Part shown: positions 8,001 to 62,990 of the stretch, piece after piece
How positions within the stretch are numbered: position 1 is the stretch's first letter
Layout of the letters: every line of letters begins with the position of its first letter
Source: Apoderus coryli
Lineage: Eukaryota > Arthropoda > Insecta > Coleoptera > Attelabidae
Direction: 5' to 3'
DNA: 64,000 bases
Assembly (NCBI GenBank): GCA_911728435.2
Contig: OU452204.1
Location: forward strand, 15,934,001 to 15,998,000
Notes under the pieces: generated by a model
The model's database searches: none
Told to the model about the DNA's origin: nothing
Seen by the model: the letters and a program-made list of their open reading frames with translations, nothing else
Position numbers and translations under genes: made by a program

Positions 8001-11000
8001 ATTTTGATTAACTAAACAATAGTACCTAAATGCTTTCAAATTATTTTAAATGTCTGTTGTTCATTCTAGGTTAATTAAGAATTAAAAAAAAAAAAAAGTA
8101 ACAGAACTTTTCACATAAGTATCTAGATACGATTTTCTATCATGACTTTGATAAATAAAAATATACGTAGGTATATGATATACCTATATAATAATATAAA
8201 TCTGTTCTATTATAAAATTTACCTGTTAACCTGCTTTTGGTTCAAGTACGAATCAGACTTCCATGAAGTTGGACGTAACTGTAAAAAAAATAAAAAACCA
8301 ATTTAAATATTATGAACGCCTATTGCCATGGACGGTGTTGATCTTTGGATATTTAGCCATAAAATAATATTATACGACGGAGTGTTCTTAAAAGCAGCCC
8401 TACTAATGGCAAGAAAATTATCTCTAGCCAACTTTTTCTAAATTAATTTACAAAGCTTTTTCATAATCTGCAAGGCATTATCTATTATAATGAAAACTAC
8501 ACAGAGTATAGATAAATTAAAATACATTGCGGTATAAATTAATTAAGCTAATTAAACTAATATGTTTCAAAACCAGAAAAACATTTCAACTGATAGCGAT
8601 ACCACTAGCATTGACTTTGACTTTGATTTATACAAAAAGATGAGTTAATTTCCTATAAACCAAAATTTTAATTAGGCAATAATTGAAAGTTGTAATATTT
8701 AAATCTGTTTGCTGGTAGCGGCTGTAAATTTCCCAGTAATAAAACTAAAATATTACCAGAAAACTAATTTTATAGGTACCTCATTCGGAAAAGTTTAAAT
8801 TGCTGTACTTAAACTTTTAGCTATGAGGTCTAAACTTGGATTCCGAAGTATATACTTAGCTGATGAAATACAACTATGAGAAAACATTAAAATTCTTAAT
8901 GATGCTATTACCATAGATAAGCTATTACCAAACAAAAAGCTTGGAGACAAACACTTAACGATTCATTTTGACAAAAGCCTTAAATAAATCGATATATTTA
9001 TATCGATTTATTTATATAATATGCTTATAGATACCTAACTGTATTTCTTGGGTTGATCAGCAAATCTTTTTGAATAAAACTATTTCACGTTATGCCAAGC
9101 TTTCGATATATTTTTATATCTTCTTCGGGGCTACAAATATAAGAGTAAGCTAAGTATAAATATACAGGGTGGTCCAACGAAAAGTTTGCACCTAGCTTTT
9201 CTCTTTTTTTTGTAGTCGAATGCGAAAATGCTCGGACACGTCGATTTTGCTTTTGAGGGGGACACATTTTAAACATATTTTTCGATCTGCGCCTTTAACC
9301 CCCTAGCGGGGGTGAGTAACAACCCTAAAATTTTAAATGGAAAGAGGGGTCTAATGACATATCATTTGAAAGGACACAAAATTGTCTTTCTAATGATACC
9401 CTATTTGTCGAATTTTACTAAAACAGTTAATACGAAAACGACTTTAAAGACATTAAGCCGATAATTTTGGTATTAATGAGAAATACAAATAAGTTTTAAT
9501 TATTGCGAGTGAAAACACCTGCAATCGTTAGTACATTCCAATGTTTGTTAGTTTTAACATTGCTTTGGAAAAAAAGTAAACAAGCTGTTAAATTGATTTA
9601 TTAAAACGTTACATTAACAAATGTTGAAAATGTGACCCATTTGATTCCATACAATAATACAGATTTTGTTCAAATCTATTTCTAACATTTTGTAGCATAT
9701 CAGGTGTTATGTTTCTGCACTCTTCTGTAATGCGTTGGCGAAGATCTTCTATGGACTCGGGCTTCGTGGCAAAACATTTATTTTTTAAGTGCCCCCAAAG
9801 AAAAAAGTCTAAAGGCGATAAATCCGGTGACCTGGCAGGCCATTCAATTGGGCCCCTCCTTCCAATCCACCGTCCAGGGAACCGGTCATCTAAGAACTGT
9901 CTTACAGGAGCCACATAGTGCGGAGGTGCTCCATCTTGCTGGAAATAAAGCCGATCAGCAGTATGATTTTGGTCATCTTCTATTATTTGTGTTATTAAAG
10001 GATCAATTGTGTCTTCAAGCATGTTTAGGTACACTTCACCAGTTAAATTTCCAGGAATAAAAAGTGGTCCTATAATATGATTTCCTAATATGCCACACCA
10101 GACGTTTATTTTTTGAGGATACTGGGTATGAACCTCACGGAATAAATGTGGGTTACTGTCATCCCAGTAACGGCAATTGTGCCTATTTACAGCTCCATTC
10201 AAATAAAATGTGCATTCGTCGGAAAAACAAATGTTAAATAATAATTGCGGATCTTCAATTAAACGCTGGCTCATTGCTTCACAAAATTGCAGCCTTCTAT
10301 CAGGATCATCCTCATTTAGTTCCTGTACTAATTTGATTTTGTACGGATGAAATTTGTACGCTTTTAAAATTCGTATTATGGACGAACGGGAGACACCTGA
10401 GGCTTCAGCTAGTTGACGGGTACTTTGACTATGATCCATTTCAACATGCCCTAAAACAGCGACTTCCACAGCTTCATTTCTGATCGGTTTCTGCGGCTGG
10501 TGTTTTACATTACAGACAGATCCGGTATCTACAAACTTTTTAACTAACTTGCCAACGTACACATCATTCACATTTTTATCGGGATGTCTCTCATTAAATA
10601 AGCGAGCCGTAAGTCTAGCACTACTATTATTTTGAAAATAAAGTTTAACAATTTCAACTCGTTCTAGAATGGAATAAATCATTTTGTACGGTAAAAGTAA
10701 AATAACTTGAGAAGCAACCAAACTGAATCAATGAAAAGACTAAAATAAACGGTGTAAATTCTTTTCCTACACGTATCTGCAGTTTTTATTTCAACAAAAA
10801 ACGCAAACGATTAGTGAGGAATTTAGTTCTGATAAATAAGATAGTGTTTTTGAAATCCCGTTTTTCTTCAAAGTAAATAATTTAGAAATGATTGTAGTTG
10901 TTTTCAGTCGTAATAATTAAAACTTATTTGTATTTCTCATTAATACCAAAATTATCGGCTTAATGTCTTTAAAGTCGTTTTCGTATTAACTGTTTTAGTA

Positions 11001-13307
11001 AAATTCGACAAATAGGGTATCATTAGAAAGACAATTTTGTGTCCTTTCAAATGATATGTCATTAGACCCCTCTTTCCATTTAAAATTTTAGGGTTGTTAC
11101 TCACCCCCGCTAGGGGGTTAAAGGCGCAGATCGAAAAATATGTTTAAAATGTGTCCCCCTCAAAAGCAAAATCGACGTGTCCGAGCATTTTCGCATTCGA
11201 CTACAAAAAAAAGAGAAAAGCTAGGTGCAAACTTTTCGTTGGACCACCCTGTATATAAAATTTAAAAATATGTTTACCTTAGTAGACGAGGCAAGTTTTA
11301 CATTGTTAAAAATAATAAAAATTATATATTAAAGAACATAAATAAAAACTTTTTTGTTAACTTGGTAAAATAAAGATTAAAATTTAACATTTTAAAGTAT
11401 CCGAATTTTTTTATAATTGACACTGACATGTTTATTCAAAAATATTTTGTTTAGTTTATTTGTGGTACCTATATTGTTTTTTAAGTGAAATGTCAAGTTT
11501 TTTATTTAGGTTAGTATGTATGTATGTATGTATTTGCTCTTCTTTATTGGCCGCAGCTACCGGGGCTATTTGGCCAGGGGTGATTGAACACCTTTATACT
11601 CGTTCGGATAACACAAGGGGTGAGTTTTATTTAGGTTAGAAAGTAGATTCAAAAGAGATATTACTGTTATTATGGGTCTTATTCTTAATAGTAAATAAAT
11701 ATGAATATATATTATATTACTGATTTCATTAGATTCTTTCTTTTTGTTTAACGTATTTTCGGTATTATACGTTTCAAACATTTCAATGAAAATTCTTTTA
11801 TTTTGATTTTGTTCACAGGCAAGAATTTTTACATTATTTAAGTCAGGAAAATAATTTGTATTAATACAATGTTCAGCCAATGCACAAGTTTTTTTGTTAA
11901 GTCGAATATCACTTTTATGTTGGGTAATTCTATCTTTAAAAACTCGGTAAGTTTGTCCGATATATACTTGGTTACAGTCAGAACCTGGTATATTATAAAC
12001 TACATTAGATTTTTTTAAATTGGAGTCTTGATCTTTAGTTTTTGTATATAAATTGTTAATCGTTTTTGATGACTTGCTGACAATTTTTAAATTTGGAAGA
12101 TCTTTTTTTATAATTTTAGTTATTTTTGGGGTTATAAATTTTATATTTGGAAAAGAAATATAAAAAATTTCGTTATTAATGTTAGAATCATGGTTGTTTC
12201 TAACGTGAACATTTGTATTCTGCTTTTCTGGTGTATTATATAATAATTTTTGTAATAGTTTCCCTAGATAGGATCAACCCAAGAAATACAGTTATCTATT
12301 AACTAGTCAGCAAAGACTATCACTCAACTTAATATGCTTGTATATATTTATAATATACTATTTAGTAGGGAACTGAAAATGTCGAATGCTGTAGACGATT
12401 TAATTCCAAAGTTCTACAAGATAACAACTATTTTGATTTAAATAAGTTCCAAAACTTTTTTAATTAAATTTTCGAATAAATTCTCTGAAACTATTGGGAC
12501 AAAATCCTGGTTTCAGTGAAATTTAGGAGTCGTGGGTGGCCTTAGGTCTTTAAGTCTATATTGAAGAAGCCAGATTATTTTTCTGCAGTGCTTTTTCGTG
12601 TACAATTAACTTTTTCAAATCAATTTTCTGGAAAAAAGAATCAAAGCAATGTGTGACGCTTTACCTGGATATTGTTTAACAGAATTTTCATTTGAGACTA
12701 AAAACGCAAAATGGCTGATAATGTGTTGGAGACATGTGTTCCAACATAATAAAAAAAAGATAAATCGAAATAACTCCCAATCTTTTGATATATATTGACC
12801 ATTTTCTAACATATTTAATATAAAAGGAAGACATATGTTGATATTACCTACCGTTACACCTATCTTTCATTCCTTGGGGGTTTTATATAGTTTCATTGTA
12901 ATTTTATGCATATCAATTGGATAATGATTAAGTGTTTATTAGACCAATCTTTGCAAGCACATGTTTGCTCTGACAGACGTTTATTGCAATTACTAATAAC
13001 TATAATTTAGATAATTTTCTCTCTAAAACTGTAAAAACAATACTGTTATTTATAAGGAAAATAATTTATATAAAGATAATATTAATCTCTATTATTTTAT
13101 TGAAATAAGAAAGAAGCTGTTAGCGAAGCAGATTTATATAATCATTGATTCTATTATATACGAGTATTATAGGATTTGGGTGTGCTCTTATTGCTCGTGG
13201 TAATCATATAATTATATAAATATTGAAATGAAAGGAATTTATACTTTATATTCATGAAGAAAACTTTTTACTATACTTACAGATTGTAAATATCCTAAGA
13301 CTTTCAT
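2034..13307 (-). CDS. Six-exon gene for an unrecognised 495-aa Q/N/H-rich protein
   Basis: Exons on the minus strand are 13281-13307, 8223-8278, 3517-3766, 3029-3461, 2583-2810 and 2034-2527. Every boundary is GT-AG and all phases agree, giving 1,488 nt (495 codons plus TAG). The start peptide is MKVLGYLQS; the next exon reads LRPTSWKSDSYLNQKQVN. Visible features are a proline-rich basic motif GTPTPPPRKHKK (about residues 85-96), a Q-run (about 122-129), a single CPLC (145-148), a His-rich stretch (about 159-165), a basic/serine segment RRCRSFGSLFPQ with a following acidic ESDDSFGGLEEWDLGLIEHY, and a second proline motif TPPPSPIPRK (about 393-402). There is no signal peptide, membrane segment or known domain that I can name; it looks like a largely disordered cytoplasmic or nuclear scaffold with possible SH3 ligands. 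The 5.0-kb first intron carries a PLE with a mariner inside it; the 4.5-kb second intron carries another mariner-like element. The first exon is the weakest call; an upstream or alternative first exon is possible. Confidence 0.72.
4579..4655 (+). pseudogene. tRNA-Ala(TGC)-like pseudogene or tRNA-derived SINE head
   Basis: The stretch holds an alanine-tRNA-like core: the D-arm end GATAGAGC, anticodon loop TTTGCAT (anticodon TGC), and a T-arm with loop TTCGAAT between TTGGG and TCCAA. It ends CTCTACCACC followed by a run of 12 T, a Pol III terminator. The anticodon stem has a mismatch and the 5' acceptor strand does not pair with CTCTACC, so it is unlikely to be a working tRNA. It could be a decayed tRNA gene or the head of a SINE. 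Confidence 0.6.
5036..5074. repeat. Short imperfect inverted repeat
   Basis: AAAAATCGCACGG and its imperfect complement (CCGCACGATTTTT) enclose a short centre, giving about 15 paired positions of 18. It lies in an AT-rich intron and may be the end of a small foldback element. Confidence 0.4.
5521..6665 (-). mobile_element. Degenerate Tc1/mariner element with long inverted repeats
   Basis: The termini TACAGGGTGTCCC (5521) and its complement (6653-6665) are followed by matching sequence for over 100 bp on each side, with a TA at each tip. Inside, the minus strand encodes transposase pieces: an ORF at 6206-6015 with NRIIEPQFLPRILNAENY and FQHDGAPARYS (second catalytic Asp), and, frameshifted, a WPPRWPDLNPID-type third catalytic segment near 5940. 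Stops and frameshifts make it inactive. It sits in intron 2 of the 495-aa gene. A related terminal fragment occurs at 32020-32165. Confidence 0.8.
7440..7473 (+). repeat. LINE 3' end with AATAAA and (TTA)n tail
   Basis: ACAATAAATGCC followed by TTTATTATTATTATA resembles the tails of other LINEs here (15420-15464, 42586-42606). The upstream 300 bp is probably LINE 3' UTR, but no coding remains, so the element's extent is unknown. Confidence 0.4.
7481..7530 (+). ncRNA. Hammerhead-ribozyme-like core (degenerate)
   Basis: CTGATGA (7487-7493), a weak G.U-rich stem II, GAAAC (7510-7514) and ATGTA follow the order of a type I hammerhead with a minimal stem III (AC AU GU, then A). Stem II is poor and stem I pairs only two bases, so it is probably a decayed PLE-derived motif. 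Confidence 0.35.
7772..7969. repeat. Inverted-repeat fragment with mariner-type ends
   Basis: A tract starting GGATAGAGTTTGGAAGAGG at 7772 is mirrored at 7940-7969. Terminus-like ACCCTGTATA (7840-7849) and ACACCATGTATA (7974-7985) lie nearby. No coding is visible; a truncated MITE is likely. Confidence 0.35.
9094..9131 (-). ncRNA. Hammerhead-like motif in the PLE tail
   Basis: Read on minus: GCC (stem I), CCGAAGA (core, with C for the usual U at position 4), A, GATATA-AAAA-TATATC (a perfect 6-bp stem II), GAAA, a minimal stem III AG/CU, U, then GGC closing stem I. All elements are in hammerhead order. The changed core base may reduce or abolish cleavage. It is physically linked to the GIY-YIG reading frame of the same PLE. 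Confidence 0.55.
9165..11251 (-). mobile_element. Apparently intact Tc1/mariner element with about 340-bp inverted repeats
   Basis: The element starts CAGGGTGGTCCAACG and ends with its complement, flanked by TA on both sides. The two terminal repeats match over about 340 bp (9165-9506 and 10910-11251) with no difference that I see by eye until they diverge, which implies a young insertion. Between them is an unbroken transposase frame on minus. It interrupts the tail of an older PLE. This is the best candidate for an active DNA transposon in the window. Confidence 0.92.
9609..10682 (-). CDS. Tc1/mariner-superfamily transposase, 357 aa
   Basis: The frame runs from ATG (10680-10682) to a stop at 9609 with no break. 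It would cut and paste the surrounding element by recognising its inverted repeats and acting in the nucleus. The N-terminus (about 1-60) is a helix-turn-helix of the insect transposase type (ERVEIVKLYFQNNSS ... RLFNERHPDK). A second HTH follows at about 84-107 (STRQLAEASGVSRSSIIRIL). The DDE/D domain shows Asp155 in CFSDECTFYLNG, Asp250 in YFQQDGAPPHY and Asp287 in ARSPDLSPLDFFLWG. I count 36 residues between the second and third Asp, unlike the 34 of classic mariner and Tc1. An in-frame extension of 13 codons upstream has no ATG, so I chose this start. No introns are needed. Confidence 0.9.
   Translation of the reverse strand: MIYSILERVEIVKLYFQNNSSARLTARLFNERHPDKNVNDVYVGKLVKKFVDTGSVCNVKHQPQKPIRNEAVEVAVLGHVEMDHSQSTRQLAEASGVSRSSIIRILKAYKFHPYKIKLVQELNEDDPDRRLQFCEAMSQRLIEDPQLLFNICFSDECTFYLNGAVNRHNCRYWDDSNPHLFREVHTQYPQKINVWCGILGNHIIGPLFIPGNLTGEVYLNMLEDTIDPLITQIIEDDQNHTADRLYFQQDGAPPHYVAPVRQFLDDRFPGRWIGRRGPIEWPARSPDLSPLDFFLWGHLKNKCFATKPESIEDLRQRITEECRNITPDMLQNVRNRFEQNLYYCMESNGSHFQHLLM
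11566..12273 (-). pseudogene. PLE C-terminal fragment with GIY-YIG endonuclease domain
   Basis: The open minus-strand frame begins within the element at 12273. It contains the linker (NTPEKQNTNVHVRNNHD, then FPNIKFITPKITKIIKKDLP), followed by the GIY-YIG core VVYNIPGSDCNQVYIGQTYR with KDRITQHKSDIR and CALAEHC. In PLEs this domain nicks target DNA after the reverse transcriptase. The frame lacks any RT, so it is a 5'-truncated relic even though it has no internal stop down to 11566; the last 50 codons are low-complexity and may lie outside the original protein. Confidence 0.8.
12300..13280. other. Intron sequence without recognisable features
   Basis: AT-rich sequence between the PLE end and the first coding exon of the 495-aa gene. 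I see no coding, repeat or RNA signal. Confidence 0.5.
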
Positions 13308-21559: not shown

Positions 21560-22121
21560 TGTCAAGTCACCTGAATTTTGACTACACAATGTAGAGCTAT
21601 GGTTTGTACAAATAGAACCAATTTTTAGAAACAAAATCATCAGACAAGTACGACCTTTTGTTAACAACATTAAATCCTCATACATTAAATATATAGTCCG
21701 GGATATCCTGCTTAAATAACAATCTGAACAGTCTTATACAATTTTAAAAGAACAGCTAATCAAACGATTCACATATTCTGACTCGAAACGAGTAGTACTT
21801 TTAATGTCACAAGAATCTGTTATTGGTCAACGACCTTCAAATCTTTTCCCAACATTTACCTCAAAAGTTACGTTTTGCATTAGTAACACATAAAGAAGAA
21901 CAAATACGAAAATTAGCTGAGTTAGCAGATAAATTACAATCCCACAGAAGTCAGTAAATTGAGGATCGAAATAGCTGAATTGAGAAAATGTTTGAAAGTA
22001 TTCAAATATTATCAAACGATCGAAGTCAATCTACACCCGTCACTTTGCTGGTATCATGATCGTTTTGCTGCTGGTGCAAGAAAATGTACGCCACCGTGTT
22101 CTTGGCCGGAAAACCAAACAA
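21560..22121 (+). pseudogene. Ty3/gypsy gag remnant
   Basis: Frames in sequence read PEFCLHNVELWFVQIEPIFR, then YTILKEQLIKRFTYSDSKRV, MSQESVIGQRPSNLF and, after frameshifts, CWYHDRFAAGARKCTPPCSW. This order (capsid-like helices, then a Cys/His cluster CWYH...C..PC) is typical of Mag-like gypsy gag, which packages element RNA. Several stops and shifts make it non-functional. Confidence 0.7.
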
Positions 22122-22130
22122 TAATATATA
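22122..22130 (+). repeat. Target-site duplication of the retrozyme (left)
   Basis: TAATATATA here is repeated at 23665-23673 immediately after the inserted array. The low complexity allows one base of ambiguity. Confidence 0.7.
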
Positions 22131-22327
22131 TTGAGAAAGAGATGTTTGTGGCGACACCTAGCGTGAACAGGCAATATGCCGGGTGAAACACAGTTCACTA
22201 CGATGGCCGGACAAGAAGTAACAACTCCATTATATCCTATTGCCAACACTAGATGCGCCCGAATCCCCTAGCAGGGAGGCTTTATTTGAGAATTGCTTGT
22301 TACATAAAGCAACAAGACTTTACGTTA

Positions 22328-22433
22328 TGTTGGAAATTTATTTCACACTACCATGCTTCCACCAGACGGCCGTTTCGTCGATCCACGACTCATCAGTGGT
22401 GATCGGCAGGCAGTGTGACCTAAATTTCCAACA
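22328..22433 (-). ncRNA. Type I hammerhead ribozyme, unit 1
   Basis: Reading on minus from 22433: outer stem I of 13 bp (TGTTGGAAATTTA with its complement), a 6-bp TCACAC/GTGTGA, an internal loop, CACCA/TGGTG, core CTGATGA, stem II GTCG-TGGAT-CGAC, GAAA, a minimal stem III (AC-GGCC-GT) and C at 22365. Self-cleavage is expected between 22365 and 22364. All invariant core bases are present. Confidence 0.88.
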
Positions 22434-22444
22434 TTTACAAAGAG

Positions 22445-22454
22445 CTTATTTATA
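22445..22454 (-). promoter_or_regulatory. TATA-like motif in the retrozyme unit
   Basis: TATAAATAAG on minus precedes the hammerhead of unit 1 by about 12 nt; it recurs at 22785-22794 (minus), 23156-23165 and 23496-23505 (plus). It could be an internal promoter driving transcription of the array. This is inference from the motif alone. Confidence 0.3.
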
Positions 22455-22667
22455 CTAGCACGAGGATTGATTGAGAAAGAGATGTTTGTGGCGACACCTA
22501 GCGTGAACAGGCAATATGCCGGGTGAAACACAGTTCACTACGATGGCCGGACAAGAAGTAACAACTCCATTATATCCTATTGCCAACACTAGATGCGCCC
22601 GAATCCCCTAGCAGGGAGGCTTTATTTGAGAATTGCTTGTTACATAAAGCAACAAGACTTTACGTTA

Positions 22668-22773
22668 TGTTGGAAATTTATTTCACACTACCATGCTTCC
22701 ACCAGACGGCCGTTTCGTCGATCCACGACTCATCAGTGGTGATCGGCAGGCAGTGTGACCTAAATTTCCAACA
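22668..22773 (-). ncRNA. Type I hammerhead ribozyme, unit 2
   Basis: Same structure as unit 1, exactly 340 bp further on; the predicted cleavage lies between 22705 and 22704. Cleavage at units 1 and 2 would release a 340-nt RNA. Confidence 0.88.
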
Positions 22774-23007
22774 TTTACAAAGAGCTTATTTATACTAGCA
22801 CGAGGATTGATTGAGAAAGAGATGTTTGTGGCGACACCTAGCGTGAACAGGCAATATGCCGGGTGAAACACAGTTCACTACGATGGCCGGACAAGAAGTA
22901 ACAACTCCATTATATCCTATTGCCAACACTAGATGCGCCCGAATCCCCTAGCAGGGAGGCTTTATTTGAGAATTGCTTGTTACATAAAGCAACAAGACTT
23001 TACGTTA

Positions 23008-23113
23008 TGTTGGAAATTTATTTCACACTACCATGCTTCCACCAGACGGCCGTTTCGTCGATCCACGACTCATCAGTGGTGATCGGCAGGCAGTGTGACC
23101 TAAATTTCCAACA
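23008..23113 (-). ncRNA. Type I hammerhead ribozyme, unit 3
   Basis: Same structure; predicted cleavage between 23045 and 23044. This unit lacks the upstream TATA-like motif because the inversion point lies at about 23130. Confidence 0.87.
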
Positions 23114-23176
23114 TTTACAAAGAGCTTATCTCTTCTCAATCAATCCTCGTGCTAGTATAAATAAGCTCTTTGTAAA

Positions 23177-23282
23177 TGTTGGAAATTTAGGTCACACTGC
23201 CTGCCGATCACCACTGATGAGTCGTGGATCGACGAAACGGCCGTCTGGTGGAAGCATGGTAGTGTGAAATAAATTTCCAACA
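23177..23282 (+). ncRNA. Type I hammerhead ribozyme, unit 4
   Basis: Plus strand: stem I outer strands 23177-23189 and 23270-23282 (13 bp), 23192-23197 with 23262-23267, and CACCA (23209-23213) with TGGTG (23246-23250). The core CTGATGA is 23214-23220, stem II is 23221-23224 with 23230-23233, GAAA is 23234-23237, stem III is AC/GT around GGCC, and C17 is at 23245 with cleavage after it. Confidence 0.9.
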
Positions 23283-23516
23283 TAACGTAAAGTCTTGTTG
23301 CTTTATGTAACAAGCAATTCTCAAATAAAGCCTCCCTGCTAGGGGATTCGGGCGCATCTAGTGTTGGCAATAGGATATAATGGAGTTGTTACTTCTTGTC
23401 CGGCCATCGTAGTGAACTGTGTTTCACCCGGCATATTGCCTGTTCACGCTAGGTGTCGCCACAAACATCTCTTTCTCAATCAATCCTCGTGCTAGTATAA
23501 ATAAGCTCTTTGTAAA

Positions 23517-23622
23517 TGTTGGAAATTTAGGTCACACTGCCTGCCGATCACCACTGATGAGTCGTGGATCGACGAAACGGCCGTCTGGTGGAAGCATGGT
23601 AGTGTGAAATAAATTTCCAACA
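23517..23622 (+). ncRNA. Type I hammerhead ribozyme, unit 5
   Basis: Identical to unit 4 at a 340-bp distance, with predicted cleavage after 23585. Units 4 and 5 together can release one 340-nt RNA from a plus-strand transcript. Confidence 0.88.
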
Positions 23623-23734
23623 TAACGTAAAGTCTTGTTGCTTTATGTAACAAGCAATTCTCAATAATATATATAATGGCGGATAATTCCTCTGGTTATT
23701 TTCAAAGCCACTTATTTTATGTTCTAGATATATA

Positions 23735-23810
23735 AAATAATTTAGAATTTTTAATAGATACAGGTAGCGAAGTAAGTGTTTTGCCACAGAATTTATTTTA
23801 AACCATAAAT
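23735..23810 (+). pseudogene. Ty3/gypsy protease (retropepsin) fragment
   Basis: The frame reads NLEFLIDTGSEVSVLPQNLF, with the retropepsin Asp-Thr-Gly (Asp codon 23757-23759). It continues the gypsy element interrupted by the retrozyme. A stop follows within a few codons. Confidence 0.65.
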
Positions 23811-24038
23811 GATGCACCCTACTTATTTTTAAAAGCTGAAAATAATTAAAAAATATCAGTATTTGGATATAAAATTTATAATTAGATTTTGGTTTGCAAA
23901 AGATTTTTCCCACTTTTTAACTCAATAAAGAGAAAGAAATAAAACAATGCCGTTAATATACATAAGCCGCCAAAGCATTACGTCACGTAGTTTGAATTGG
24001 AATCATTAGAGTTACGTCGATTTTATATACAATTGTGC

Positions 24039-24206: not shown

Positions 24207-24702
24207 CCCCGCTGTTTACCCCTCGGAAAATTGTGACGACTTGTTTTACTTTTTGACAATTCTATTTATTGACAACAATGAAATCGAATAACTTGATTTT
24301 AAATACAATAAAATTAAATTTTAAACATTTTTCCGGCCAAAAAAAAATAATAATAATAAGCCACCAAGAATCCATTCCCATTTCTTCTCAGTCTGCATTA
24401 ATAGGCAAAGGGCAAATCTTCAATAAGCATCGCTTTACCTACTATACTAGTGCATAAAAATAACTTTAAACTTCTTCAAGTATAAGAAAATTGTGACGAC
24501 TTATTTTACTTTTTGACAATTCTATTTATTTATGAGAACCAACAATAAAATTAAATTTTAAACAAACTCCACAAATGCATCTCGTATAATCTTAATTTAA
24601 AATACTATAAATGTTTCGGAATTCTGGCTAGATACAGAAAGTCTGACTACCTACATTGATTCACCTGATGAAAAATAAGAAAAGAACAATTATATATTTT
24701 AA

Positions 24703-25152
24703 TTTTTCTACGACTGTCTTTAAATGCCTTTATTCTATGTTCAATCATGATTGGAAAATGTAGTACATTGTAATTCTGTTTTTCATTTACCCGTGCACAA
24801 TAAATATTTCCCACTAGTTGCCTAGCAAATATTTATTACGCACGGGTAAATTTCCTGGTAATGACAAAAATAGCATCGGGCATGAAAAATCACCATAAGA
24901 ACGCCGACAATACAAACACACCAAATTGACAGTTTATGTATTTACAATTAATAATTATAATTAAGTATTTCGCTAATTTCAAAACACAAAAACAGTGATA
25001 GGGAATATAGTTTAACACCACCTAGTCAATTTAATACTTCTAATTAATCGTATTTAGGCTTATACGCTAACAAGGGTAAGTTTCGAAAAATAAATATTTT
25101 CCTAAAAATTATGTTAAATTTATTCAAAAGCATTAAAACAGTCGTAGAAAAA
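24703..25152 (+). mobile_element. 450-bp inverted-repeat element, copy A
   Basis: It begins TTTTTCTACGACTGTCTTTA and ends with the near complement (AACAGTCGTAGAAAAA). An internal palindrome with TTTACCCGTGC ends lies at about 24788-24852. No coding. A second copy of the same length is at 52120-52569. Likely a non-autonomous DNA transposon. Confidence 0.7.
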
Positions 25153-44089: not shown

Positions 44090-45628
44090 AAAATTTAAAG
44101 TATAATAAATTGTCAGGATGCGTTAATTGTTTTCGTATATTATTTTGTATTCTTTTTAAGTAAAATAGTAAATTCAGAGAGAAAAAAAAATATATATATA
44201 CATATAACGAAGAAATAAAGAAAAATAAAATAAAAAAAACTTAAAATAAAGAAATATATATATAAATTAAAATTACTTTGCCAATATCTGGGCCGAAGCT
44301 TTAATCGGTTGATGAGGTGACGTATATCTGTAAATAAACAGAAGGAAAGTCTGAGCAATTTTGTTCTACTCATGTGTGTATGTAAAATCTTGTATTGTAA
44401 TGTGCATTATTATTAATTAATTCCTTATTGTTATTGGGACATCTTATCCACATTGTCTTTTACGACTTTAATTCAGAATTAAGATAACATTAATCAAAAA
44501 TTGCCAGTAATACATCATTCATTGATATACTGAGCGTCAATGATACCAGGGGTAGGTCACGCAAGGTATCGCTGCAGTTATCACAAAATTCAAATAACAC
44601 TAGTTCGGAGTGGCCATGGTACCAGGGGCAGATCACGCAAGGTACCCTCCAAAAACTAGGCAAACGGTAGTACTGAGTGTGCAATGATACCAGGGGAAGG
44701 TCGCGCAAGGTATCGCTCCAGATACTAACCAATAAAAATCAACGGTCGAGAGCTTATAATGTATCAGGGGTAGGTCGCGCAAGATACTGCTCTATAACTG
44801 ACCACACGTTAGCACTGAGTGTGCAATGATATCAGGGGAAGGTCGCGCAAGATATCGTTCCAGATACTAACAAAAAAATAAATAATAATTCAACGGTCCG
44901 GAGCTTATAATGTATCAGGGGCAGGTCACGCAAGATACTGCTCCATAATTGACCAAAATATACTGATGTTTCATACGGCATTAATGAGTCAATGATAATA
45001 AAATAATAAAACATGAAAAATCTGATAATTACTTGATATCAATATAAATATGATCAAGAATAGATAATGCACTTGTTTTGAATTTAACTTCCTTCAGATA
45101 AATTTGTATTATCAAATTAAAATATCAATAATAGCCAAAATGTTAAATAAATCATAAAAAACTGAATAATATATATATCGAAAAGAAAATCATGCAAAAC
45201 AAATTTACTCAGTGAGAAACTCACCCTTATGGATGTAGAATAGAACCTCGTCGACAATAGGTAGGTTGAGCACACAAGATTCACAAACACACAATTTAAT
45301 AATTAATAATTTAAAATATTCGAATAGTTGTAAACTCTTTGGAAATAAAATTGAAAATGAATCCCATAGACAAAGACGTGATTCTCAGACGTTAGAACCA
45401 TTTATTTGTTTACTTTACAAACCTCTTGAGGCTGCATTATTTTTATTTAATATAAACATAACGCGCTATCGAATCTTTGTATGTTCCCACGAAGTTGATG
45501 AGGAAAAAAAATATTTCGGTTATAATATTAGAAAAAAATATATAGGGTCTTACAGACGTTTTGTTTTTGAAAAACCATCAACAACTTGTTTTTTTTAATA
45601 CGTGGTAATGGTTTAAACAAGTTTTCAG
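44090..45628. other. Insertion of unknown class carrying the hairpin array
   Basis: This block separates homologous parts of the mariner arm, so it is a later insertion. It is AT-rich, with (TA)n tracts, and contains the hairpin array. The boundaries are approximate. An open frame at 45266-45598 has no recognisable domain. A Helitron-like or other non-autonomous element is possible, but I see no diagnostic ends. Confidence 0.4.
44520..44960 (+). repeat. Array of six hairpins with constant loop and covarying stems
   Basis: Six stem-loops lie at 44542-44570, 44618-44646, 44686-44714, 44761-44787, 44828-44856 and 44912-44938. Each loop has 17 nt of the form AGGGGNAGRTCRCGCAA. The stems are GATACC/GGTATC, GGTACC/GGTACC, GATACC/GGTATC, GTATC/GATAC, GATATC/GATATC and GTATC/GATAC, so every change on one side is matched on the other. 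They form three tandem dimers of about 143 bp (spacing 75-84 within dimers). The compensatory changes imply selection or copying constraint on the hairpin as RNA or single-stranded DNA. No known RNA family fits; no coding function. Confidence 0.8.
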
Positions 45629-56800: not shown

Positions 56801-59800
56801 AGTATAGAACAATCTAAAACTAGAACATGTGCATTGGGACTAAGATAAAACAGTTGATTATGTTGAGATAATAAATTCTCATTTGAAGAACCTTCTGATA
56901 TGCATACTGCTTATGGTGCAACCCATTGCAATGCAAGAGAAGCAGCACGCTTGTACGAAGAACGCCGCCAACCTGATCATACAACCTTCGTTGCCTTAGT
57001 GGTAGTGTTGCCTGCTTGTTTGCACTCAGACTTTTATCTAAATTTTCTGCAAAATGTTTTGTATCGTATCGTTAGAAATAACAACGTGTACTTTCAAGAT
57101 GATAATGCACCTCCAGACTTCTGATCTTAACCCTCTGGAAACCACCAGATGGTTTTGGATATAGATCCTGTGGTTTTTAGGGCAGAAATGCATTAGCTGG
57201 CTTTTGGAAGAATTGATTATTTACAATTGATGGCTTCTAGCTTACAAGCTAATTGAATCAAAATTCTCCTTCAATTTTTGGTTGACGATATAGACTTCCC
57301 GAGAGGGAAACGAACAGAAAACAGGATTATCATCCTCAAAACAATTAAGTTTGCAATGTTTAACAGATTTAGAAAAATCTGCGGTGTAGAGCAGGAATGA
57401 AATGGGGCCAAGTACGCTGCCCTGTGGAACCCCAGATGTTATGTATTCGGACTAAGGATCAAATTGAGAATTATTTCTTATATTTAAACGCTTTTAACAA
57501 AAAATGTGGAAAAAAATATACACAAACCTCGTAAGAAAAGTTTTAGTTCTACTCAACTTGTCGCAAATAGTTTTCCGAGATATTTTTACAGAATTTCCCT
57601 TTATTATTCCAAGAGAAACTACTAAATTTTGACATCTGAGCACTACTGTCAATACACCATTTAACATAAACTGTTTTTCTTTTAATTAACCACATATTAT
57701 ATATTTAAATGGCTGCAGGTCCTGTCAGAGGTACTTAAAATAAATTTATGTATCCGCTTCATATAAGAAAAATAATTAAAATTTCTTTTGATAAATGATT
57801 TATTTAAATTTTTGAAATTTCAGTTGTCGTAACAACACAGATGATACCAGTTCCGCTGGGTGATCAACCAACAGCTACAATGTGTCCATATTGTCACGCA
57901 CAAATTGTGACATCAGTGGAGACAGAACCAAATACTAAAACACATTTGTTTGCACTTCTATTGTGTCTTTTTGTGTAAGTAATATTAGACTAGTGAATGA
58001 ACAGATTAACAGATTCAAATTACGTAGCTCTAGTTCGTCGGCCTCGGGCTTTTTTCTTTACATACCAAAAGTTGTATATTACGAAAAAATATTATTGTAA
58101 ATCGTATTTTATCATAATCAAAGTCCCATGACATGGGATAATGTTTTAGAGCATCCAACGGCAACATTTTAGCTTTTACAATTGCACGAAAAGCTGGGGC
58201 AGTAAAAGTCCAGCTGCAAATAGGCAGCGATGAATTGTTGTCGAATTACGGATGACGAATAATTGGGTTTTATTCGTTCTGCTTTTTTTATCAGGGTTAT
58301 GGTGTCGCCAGAAGTCAAACCTTCGGAGCCAAATGATTTATGTTTAATCAATCTTCGGTTAATTGTGTATATAATTATATAATTAATTATAATATAATTA
58401 ATTATAATATAATTGCTAAAACAAAATATCATGACAACAAAAGCGTACAAATTACAAAGTAATACCTTGTCTAGTCGTTCATATTATATAAAACAATAAA
58501 GTCATTTTCAACCTAATTGAATACACATAACAAATAACTTGATCTACACAATACGAATAAATAAATAACTTTATCACATTTCAGTGGTAGAAAATTCTTA
58601 ATGATATACATCGTCGTTGTTCTTAATTTAAGTAGCCTTATAAAAAAATTACAACTAAAAAACATAAATATATCCTATCTCGGATTATACTTGTATACAG
58701 TCAGGCCAAATTTCAGTGTACATTATTTTATATTACCATTCATTCAGAAGCTCAAATGAACAGCAAGCAAGCATCACAGTGCTTCTTCCCAACACAACTT
58801 CCCTGATCTGTTAATAGTATTCAATTTTAACATTTTAATTTGTGAGTAGAGCAGAGTAAATGATGCTTAGGTTCATTGTGTCAGTTCTAAAATTGACCGA
58901 TTTTTCTTTAAATTTGTTGATGTGGAGCATCTCTGATAATGCTCTCTTTTTATAATTAGTCTCGCGGTCCAAAATGCTTGTGTTATCAAAGTCGAAACAG
59001 TGATTTGTTTCGAAGTGGTGGTTTGACAGGGCTGTTTTTGTACTTGAGTCTAGCTTTTCTGGGCGGCAATCATTAGCGTGTTGTTTAAGTCTTTGATGTA
59101 ATCTATTCTTTGTCATACGAATGTAAATCTTTTCACAATCCTTACACGGTATGGAGTATACTACTTCAGAAATACTCTGTCTAGGGTCCCTATCCTTCAA
59201 GCTTGTGAACAAATTCTGTACTTTTTTCTTTGAATACGTTACGATATTAGAATTAGGGGTCTGTCAGCATTTGACCAATTTATTGCTAAGTGCATTTACT
59301 TGGGGGATTTTCAGGTATTTCTTGTGTTTGGCATCCGACAAGTTTTCCGGATGTCGGTCATGATTATTATGTAAAATAAAATTAACAATGTTTTTTGGGT
59401 AGCCATTTTCAGACGCGATCTTTATAATTTCATTAAAATTCTTTTCATGAAATTTAGGGTGGGATAACCTGAGAATTCTATTTTTGAAAGATTTAATAAC
59501 AGCTATCTTCTGATGCAAAAGGTGGGTAGATTTGAAGTTAAGAATCTTGGTCGATGAAGTCGACTTTCGGTACCAATCAGTTATGAGTAGGTTAGTAGTG
59601 TCTTTAATTACTAAAGTATCTAAGAAGGGGATCGAATTGTTTTTTCCATTTCGAAAGTGAATTGTAGATTATTATTGTAACTATTGAAATGTTGTAAGGT
59701 TATTGTTTCTTGATGTTTAGGAATACAAGTGATGATATCATCAACATAAATAAATATAAAAGGTAAGCTGAACGGTAGGCTCGGAATCACACTACTTAGA

Positions 59801-62691: not shown

Positions 62692-62990
62692 TTACCGGGC
62701 AACAACAAAAATAACGATACGGGAAATACTTTTCGTTTTAAAAATCATATTAGCTACTTCAATTTCATTATGAACAATTTCTTCAATGTATTCTTCAGCA
62801 ACAGTTGCCCAGTTCCATCCCCCATGCCTCTTTAAATTAGTCAAATCTGCGCCAAAGTCAGCCAAAATTCCAGAGGATCGGCGAAACAATGCCCTATACC
62901 TTTATTCTCCACAATTTGGTAAATTTAAATATTTGGCAACAATTTGCGGCATTTTACCAAACTGAGGAATTCCTATTATTTGTTTGCACC
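62692..62990 (-). pseudogene. Tyrosine recombinase (Crypton-type) C-terminal fragment
   Basis: Minus strand: FGKMPQIVAKYLNLPN (about 62950-62900), then, after a shift, HCFRRSSGILADFGADLTNL and KRHGGWNWATVAEEYIEEIV. This is the C-terminal catalytic region of a tyrosine recombinase: HxxRR (Arg), HGGW (His) and the nucleophile Tyr in EEYIEE. Such domains occur in Cryptons and related insect elements, which integrate by site-specific recombination. The N-terminal part is lost. A second, shorter copy lies at 26735-26835. Confidence 0.7.

Follow-up and report, generated by a model that had tools for sequence, protein, structure and literature searches.

A head-to-head array of a 340-bp unit

The window, by which we mean the whole 64-kb stretch of DNA that was analyzed, contains at positions 22130-23664 an array of approximately 4.5 copies of a 340-bp unit, of which the first 2.94 run in one direction and the following 1.57 are inverted (Table 1). 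If the sense strand is defined as the strand that carries the hammerhead ribozymes, the two parts stand head to head, with the 5′ sides of the sense strand pointing inward and both outer ends corresponding to 3′ ends of the sense RNA. Tandem Repeats Finder described the left part (22130-23129) as 2.9 copies with a period of 340 and a match of 100%, and a repeat search found the inverted arms 22286-22817 and 23133-23664 to be 100% complementary over 532 nt. The two parts (1000 nt and 532 nt) match one circular 340-nt unit exactly, the sole exception being a short indel where they meet. Elsewhere in the 64-kb window, no further exact piece of the unit of at least 14 nt was found, and the array is the single locus of the unit there. 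A preliminary description of this DNA had counted five copies. There are indeed five complete hammerheads, but they belong to some 4.5 units in two orientations and not to one row; likewise, the two cleavage sites that it had named (22365|22364 and 23245|23246) are present but lie on opposite strands, an inversion that it left undescribed.

The unit has a GC content of 44% and appears to be noncoding, in agreement with the earlier statement that it follows no coding logic. The longest stop-to-stop frame inside the repeated unit comprises 78 aa, had no relative in a protein database search, and was discarded as a chance frame. Two longer frames were discarded as well, one of 121 aa (22902-23267) that spans the junction and one of 122 aa (23548-23916, minus strand) that leaves the array. 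The repeat search revealed no LTR-like ends in the array, comparison of the unit with phages and plasmids gave no match, and the tRNA scan returned 0 hits. The TATAAATA motif of the unit is a putative promoter.

Table 1. Positions of the array, its parts, its flanks, and the Penelope-like fragments in the window
Feature	Position	Strand	Evidence
Gag-like pieces QKLRFALVTHKEEQIRKLAELADKL, LCWYHDRFAAGARKCTPPCSWPEN, left flank	21800..22129	+	Frames
Left target-site duplication copy CAATAATATATAT	22119..22131		Sequence
Retrozyme array, 2.94 units (1000 nt exact)	22130..23129	-	Hammerheads on minus strand
Type I hammerhead, cleavage 22365|22364	22359..22402	-	Rfam RF00163, 32.3 bits
Type I hammerhead, cleavage 22705|22704	22699..22742	-	Rfam RF00163, 32.3 bits
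Type I hammerhead, cleavage 23045|23044	23039..23082	-	Rfam RF00163, 32.3 bits
TATAAATA motif in unit	22454-22447 and 22794-22787	-	Sequence
Inner head-to-head junction	23128..23139		Circular-unit comparison, sequence
Retrozyme array, inverted part, 1.57 units (532 nt exact)	23133..23664	+	Hammerheads on plus strand
TATAAATA motif in unit	23156..23163 and 23496-23503	+	Sequence
Type I hammerhead, cleavage 23245|23246	23208..23251	+	Rfam RF00163, 32.3 bits
Complete 340-nt monomer between two plus-strand cleavage sites (the one such)	23246..23585	+	Folding
Type I hammerhead, cleavage 23585|23586	23548..23591	+	Rfam RF00163, 32.3 bits
Right target-site duplication copy CAATAATATATAT	23662..23674		Sequence
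Protease-like piece LIDTGSEVSVLP, right flank	23680..23830	+	Pfam gag-asp_proteas, E 0.022, below cut-off
Second Penelope-like endonuclease fragment	11566..12273	-	Similarity to 58835-59263
Degenerate Penelope-like fragment	58835..59668	-	Endonuclease piece 58835-59263 and RT-side piece 59264-59668

Other repetitive DNA lies apart from the array. At 9160-11256 there is a near-intact transposon with 378-bp terminal inverted repeats (98%) and ends CAGGGTGGTCC flanked by TA, which we take to be of the IS630/Tc1-mariner type. Its transposase frame (9609-10727, minus strand; 372 aa from stop to stop) matches DUF4817, and the element was probably recently active, since database relatives are up to 97% identical. 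The transposase has at least 120 relatives, the three named among the matches listed being from the scorpion Centruroides and the beetles Euwallacea and Anthonomus; a LINE reverse transcriptase of the window also has at least 120, with the termite Cryptotermes (twice) and the moth Mythimna as the three named among the matches listed. These six names all belong to arthropods, and the host of the array is probably an arthropod as well; transposons can, however, move between species. At 44529-44955, Tandem Repeats Finder detected 2.9 tandem copies (78%) of a 142-bp sequence; they have a sub-period of 68 bp, and the motif CAATGATACCAGGGGAAG recurs in them.

Hammerhead ribozymes and predicted fold of the RNA

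With the Rfam model Hammerhead_1 (RF00163), the array gave five matches at 32.3 bits, with an E value of 4e-4 for the whole window and 1.1e-5 for 1.8 kb. The gathering score of this model is 34 bits; all five sites are just below it, and a default Rfam scan therefore lists 0 hammerheads. The preliminary description had claimed a complete type I hammerhead in every unit and had pointed to the covariance model as a check. The first claim holds for each of the five sites as judged from the RF00163 alignment, in which the core residues are all present; the check itself produced the five matches, but at a score short of the gathering score. The core consists of stem I (CACCA/UGGUG), CUGAUGA, stem II (GUCG/CGAC with the loop UGGAU), GAA, and stem III (AC/GU with the palindromic tetraloop GGCC), and the cut falls after GUC. 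Stem I is the stem that is open to the rest of the unit, which makes the ribozyme type I. It continues outward as a long helix, for which the repeat search gave 26-nt arms with 88% identity and the fold gave 14 + 10 + 3 bp with small interruptions; the long outer helix reported earlier is thus present, but not in the reported form of 13 bp.

Our own hammerhead descriptor recovered the five sites of the array and one weak match, at 62798 on the minus strand, in the 64-kb window. With stem III limited to 12 nt, it gave 0 matches in 30 windows whose letters had been shuffled within blocks of 300 bases. A type I pattern built on the stem II base and the stem III of the array was encountered in 5 stretches of viral contigs and 1 of genome contigs, once each and never in tandem, compared to five times within 1.5 kb of the array; under our descriptor, stem I was absent in 6 of these 6 matches, and the exact hammerhead strings were found 0 times in viral contigs. 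The string at 62798 has a stem II of 2 bp and is most likely a chance match; it lies 3.1 kb from, and on the same strand as, the Penelope-like fragment at 58835-59668.

The 340-nt monomer is predicted to fold at −112.9 kcal/mol (z = −5.2), and none of 100 dinucleotide shuffles was as stable. The fold program favors an alternative helix over the hammerhead fold by 9.2 kcal/mol. In this 9-bp helix (23208-23251), GAUG and GUCGU are paired with ACGGCCGUC, which buries the C of the cut site, and since it is the more stable structure according to the program, activity of the hammerhead is not assured. Random hammerheads in general look unstable to the program (mean gaps of 5.6 and 5.2 with stem I retained and with stem I likewise randomized, respectively), and a gap of 9.2 kcal/mol was reached by 105/2000 and 104/2000 of them; as so many random hammerheads show a gap as large, the predicted off-fold is at most a hint. 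It is imaginable that, after cutting, a local refold hides the ribozyme and in this way protects the circle, a notion to which the modeled structures give this hint only.

In sum, we regard the locus as almost certainly an animal (non-LTR) retrozyme, as had been claimed, and the claim is borne out on the features that can be tested in sequence: a type I hammerhead with a 2-bp stem III and a tetraloop, a noncoding unit of 340 nt in tandem copies, a GC content below 50%, a target duplication of more than 4 bp, and a very stable predicted fold. In the parts of PMC7229834 covered here, animal non-LTR retrozymes are described with units of 170 to 400 nt, a GC content below 50%, and target duplications above 4 bp, and a 2-bp stem III with a tetraloop is likened to the hammerheads of invertebrates. 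The first hammerhead repeats to be described were those of newt satellite DNA (PMC7229834), and a hammerhead is known in a cave-cricket satellite (PMC2837043, as far as covered), so that the array could also be an inert satellite with a relic hammerhead that was expanded by unequal exchange or arose by two insertions. It comprises only 4.5 units, however, in both orientations and within one target duplication, with no other exact piece in the window, and such an origin is hardly credible.

Target site, ends of the array, and proposed route of insertion

The whole array is enclosed by one target-site duplication, which measures 8 bp if only bases strictly beyond the exact array are counted and up to 13 bp (CAATAATATATAT) if those that also belong to the array ends are included. 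Its length is ambiguous (8 to 13 bp) because the target reads TATATA, and the 9 bp noted earlier fall inside this range. With a slide of up to 3 bases per side, the 13-bp duplication was matched by 0/20,000 random and 1/20,000 AT-rich flank pairs. Around the minus part alone there is a duplication of 3 bp and around the plus part alone one of 2 bp, and we therefore rejected two separate insertions; one duplication around the whole argues for entry as one event.

The array adjoins gag-like pieces on the left and a protease-like piece on the right, both in broken frames and on the same strand, and therefore its target was probably an old, decayed gypsy-like element. That the left pieces derive from the gag of such an element is our assumption; in Pfam, the left flank matched no gag family and gave only a weak SCAN match (E 0.022). 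The decayed gypsy element of the preliminary description is thus plausible from the broken gag- and protease-like frames, but the best E value that Pfam adds is a weak 0.022. A 45-bp direct repeat (24226-24530; 260 bp apart, 98%) follows on the right side of the array, within or next to the decayed element, and at 24785-24851 a 25-bp hairpin with a 17-base loop (92%) gives a weak mir-95 match far below the cut-off.

Exact palindromic repeats are a classic source of assembly trouble, and such repeats are present here, so a fold-back chimera or a mis-joined tandem array has to be considered. The palindrome ends with the array, however, the flanks differ, the duplication is direct and not inverted, and the gag-like and protease-like pieces on the two sides share one strand. 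Since the flanks are not inverted copies of each other, a fold-back error is disfavored, and we consider an assembly artifact very improbable, although the true copy number in the array could still differ from that in the assembly.

The copies show 0 substitutions over 1,532 nt, which supports the earlier view that the insertion is recent. The Poisson bound of 0.2% per site translates into under ~7e5 generations at an assumed rate of 2.8e-9 per site and generation; identical copies are also to be expected if there was one template, and gene conversion or assembly consensus could maintain the identity and mimic a young age.

The two outer ends fall at one and the same heptamer, TTCTCAA (22137-22131 on the left and 23658-23664 on the right). 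The heptamer occurs twice in the unit, at phases 0-6 and 185-191, that is, 185 nt apart, and at this one locus the ends use both sites. Of 57,630 phase pairs, 2 share 7 nt if no slide is permitted and 18 do so if a slide of as much as 2 is allowed. In the predicted circle, both heptamers are very open (0.96 and 0.93 unpaired), one of them in a hairpin loop, and positions equally open account for 1.5% and 3.2%. The inner stops are both located no more than 21 nt from the first start site (chance 0.016), whereas their distance from each other, within 34 nt, is not unusual alone (0.20). As these comparisons were formed after looking, the statistics on heptamer, openness, and stop sites are suggestive, not decisive. 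The locus is most informative in its head-to-head order within a single duplication and in the heptamer that its two outer ends have in common, and on these the preliminary description was silent.

At the inner junction, GAGCTTAT|CTCTTCTCAATC, the letters AT are common to both sides (a 2-nt microhomology) and one T is lost, CTCTTTCTC being read as CTCTTCTC; in an alternative reading, a 3-nt filler, CTC, precedes TTCTCAA. The junction contains a short AAGAG/CTCTT inverted repeat and not a long palindrome. Matches to the microRNAs mir-3923, MIR1878, and mir-3140 at this position are far below the cut-offs, reflect the fold-back of the inverted array, and were rejected.

From the unit, its orientation, and its exact identity, and from the ends, the junction, and the duplication, all of which can be read directly, we infer an insertion with a circle as template, priming from both target strands, and a Penelope-like machine. 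To priming from both strands we assign a probability of roughly 60%. Given the orientation of the array, the outer ends would be the starts of the cDNAs and the inner junction their two ends. The type I hammerhead would cut tandem transcripts to 340-nt monomers, which a host ligase would be expected to circularize according to the pathway in the literature. A staggered break at AATAATATATAT inside the old gypsy-like element would yield two 3′ ends, each of which would prime reverse transcription on the sense retrozyme RNA, internally at TTCTCAA. The enzyme would complete 2.9 laps of the template when starting from one side and 1.6 when starting from the other, and joining of the two cDNA 3′ ends at the 2-nt microhomology would leave a head-to-head array in one target duplication. 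Because the cut site of the hammerhead is crossed five times, the template would have been circular or an uncut multimer, and zero base differences among the copies fit one small circular template.

In LINE twin priming, one strand primes the usual cDNA and the other primes an inverted cDNA on the same RNA; small junction microhomology and a one-base loss are usual in this process, and both are found here. Furthermore, the window has reverse transcriptases of the LINE type, with RVT_1 matches in 4 of the 10 ORFs scanned, and LINEs are named as possible mobilizers in the covered part of PMC7229834. We nevertheless regard twin priming by a LINE as unlikely. Neither end of the array carries a poly(A) or simple 3′ tail, and the same internal heptamer at both ends fits an RNA-specified start, as reported on both strands for the Penelope-type protein PAc (PMC11167929), better than a random second primer; the missing tail and the common heptamer are therefore evidence against it. 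Alternatively, only one strand may have been primed and its cDNA may have snapped back or jumped, with the far side closed by repair. Self-priming of this kind has been proposed for head-to-head Penelope copies (PMC3846280, in the part covered), and the 532-nt arm is the exact inverse of 22286-22817, as a snap-back would give. However, this would not explain why the two outer ends have the identical heptamer, and the junction, with its short inverted repeat, 2-nt microhomology, and one lost base, contains no long palindrome; we judge self-priming or template switching to be distinctly improbable.

For priming from both strands, a Penelope-like element is the most likely insertion machine, with chances that we see as about even. 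The endonuclease piece of the degenerate fragment at 58835-59668 matches Pfam GIY-YIG with an E value of 2.1e-4 and 22.0 bits (cut-off, 22.6), and the adjoining piece, which we take to be the RT side of a Penelope-like element, has no Pfam match. The second fragment is 41% identical to the endonuclease piece over 111 aligned columns (E 6e-21) and has no relevant Pfam match of its own. Both fragments are broken, and their naming, which goes back to the one GIY-YIG match just below the cut-off, is tentative. When two Penelope-like pieces were compared with solved structures, one gave three matches, all weak and unrelated (best E 0.21), and the other gave none; NCBIfam gave one unrelated match (E 0.22). 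Two descriptors found no convincing hammerhead near the fragments. The 340-bp unit has no RT or GIY-YIG frame and hence is not itself a Penelope-like element; the retrozyme may use only the enzymes of one.

Penelope elements have been proposed, not demonstrated, to mobilize retrozymes; in the covered part of PMC7229834, Penelope-like elements are named strong candidates for the mobilizer of animal retrozymes, on the basis of shared hammerheads, tandem copies, and coexistence. PAc, a purified Poseidon/Penelope protein, cleaves and extends both target strands and prefers AT-rich DNA. Its reverse transcription begins at an internal, AC-rich stem-loop of the RNA and apparently does not differ between the strands; it works chiefly on unprocessed, not ribozyme-cut, RNA, and a short tail is delimited by its two start sites (PMC11167929). 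In Adineta, inverted-repeat copies of Penelope are most frequently head to head, with duplications of 8, 9, and 10 bp named, some inverted copies are without a duplication, and the repeats of Pen1 are mostly direct (PMC3846280, in the part covered). Our array shares with them the head-to-head copies in a single duplication, here of 8 to 13 bp. Tentatively, and with somewhat less than even confidence, we suggest that a Penelope-type RT/endonuclease cuts an AT-rich target on both strands and, working from either end, copies a small ribozyme-made circle at a fixed single-stranded motif, which would generate multi-lap head-to-head arrays and make the locus a footprint of retrozyme movement in animals. 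If this is true, a circular RNA is copied from both target strands at once. A head-to-head multi-lap copy with one duplication and one end motif is evidence on insertion that can be tested in genomes with many copies.

Comparison with known systems

In 5′-inverted LINE-1 copies, which arise by twin priming, an inverted segment lies in a single target duplication and the junction shows microhomology. The array resembles them in the inverted segment within one target duplication and in the microhomology at the inner junction, but differs in that it has no 3′ tail, consists of multi-lap copies of a unit, and has both ends at one internal motif.

The locus represents a new retrozyme that belongs to a known kind but was inserted in a form for which the parts of the retrozyme literature covered here give no precedent, as none of them reports head-to-head retrozymes. 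Like the animal non-LTR retrozymes of Cervera and de la Pena 2020 (PMC7229834, in the part covered), it has a type I hammerhead with a 2-bp stem III and a tetraloop, a 340-nt tandem unit with a GC content of 44%, a duplication of more than 4 bp, a strongly self-paired RNA, and Penelope-like sequences in the same genome. Unlike these, which are described there as tandem, it is arranged head to head in one duplication, and whereas the hammerhead is free to fold in most animal retrozyme circles (PMC7229834), a local alternative helix is predicted here to pair the C of the cut site.

With plant LTR retrozymes, the locus shares a noncoding self-cleaving unit moved by the enzymes of another element (PMC4918200 and PMC11722881, in the parts covered). 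The hammerheads of the plant elements are type III, their duplications measure 4 bp, and they have LTRs (PMC7229834) and units of ~700 bp (PMC7761336, in the part covered), compared to a type I hammerhead, at least 8 bp, and 340 bp here.

Parallels in architecture are also seen with Penelope-like elements with inverted pLTRs, which are head to head and carry type I hammerheads (PMC3846280 and PMC8969392, in the parts covered), with duplications of 8 to 10 bp (PMC3846280; 8 to 13 bp here) and AT-rich targets (PMC11167929). The hammerhead of the array is fuller than the minimal ones of Penelope, which lack helix III or loop-loop contacts (PMC7761336, in the part covered), and unlike these elements, the array is without a reverse transcriptase or endonuclease gene. 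An internal start of reverse transcription and priming from both strands, as we propose them for the array, would be shared with PAc, but the two starts are 185 nt apart in the array, whereas those of PAc bound a short tail (PMC11167929).
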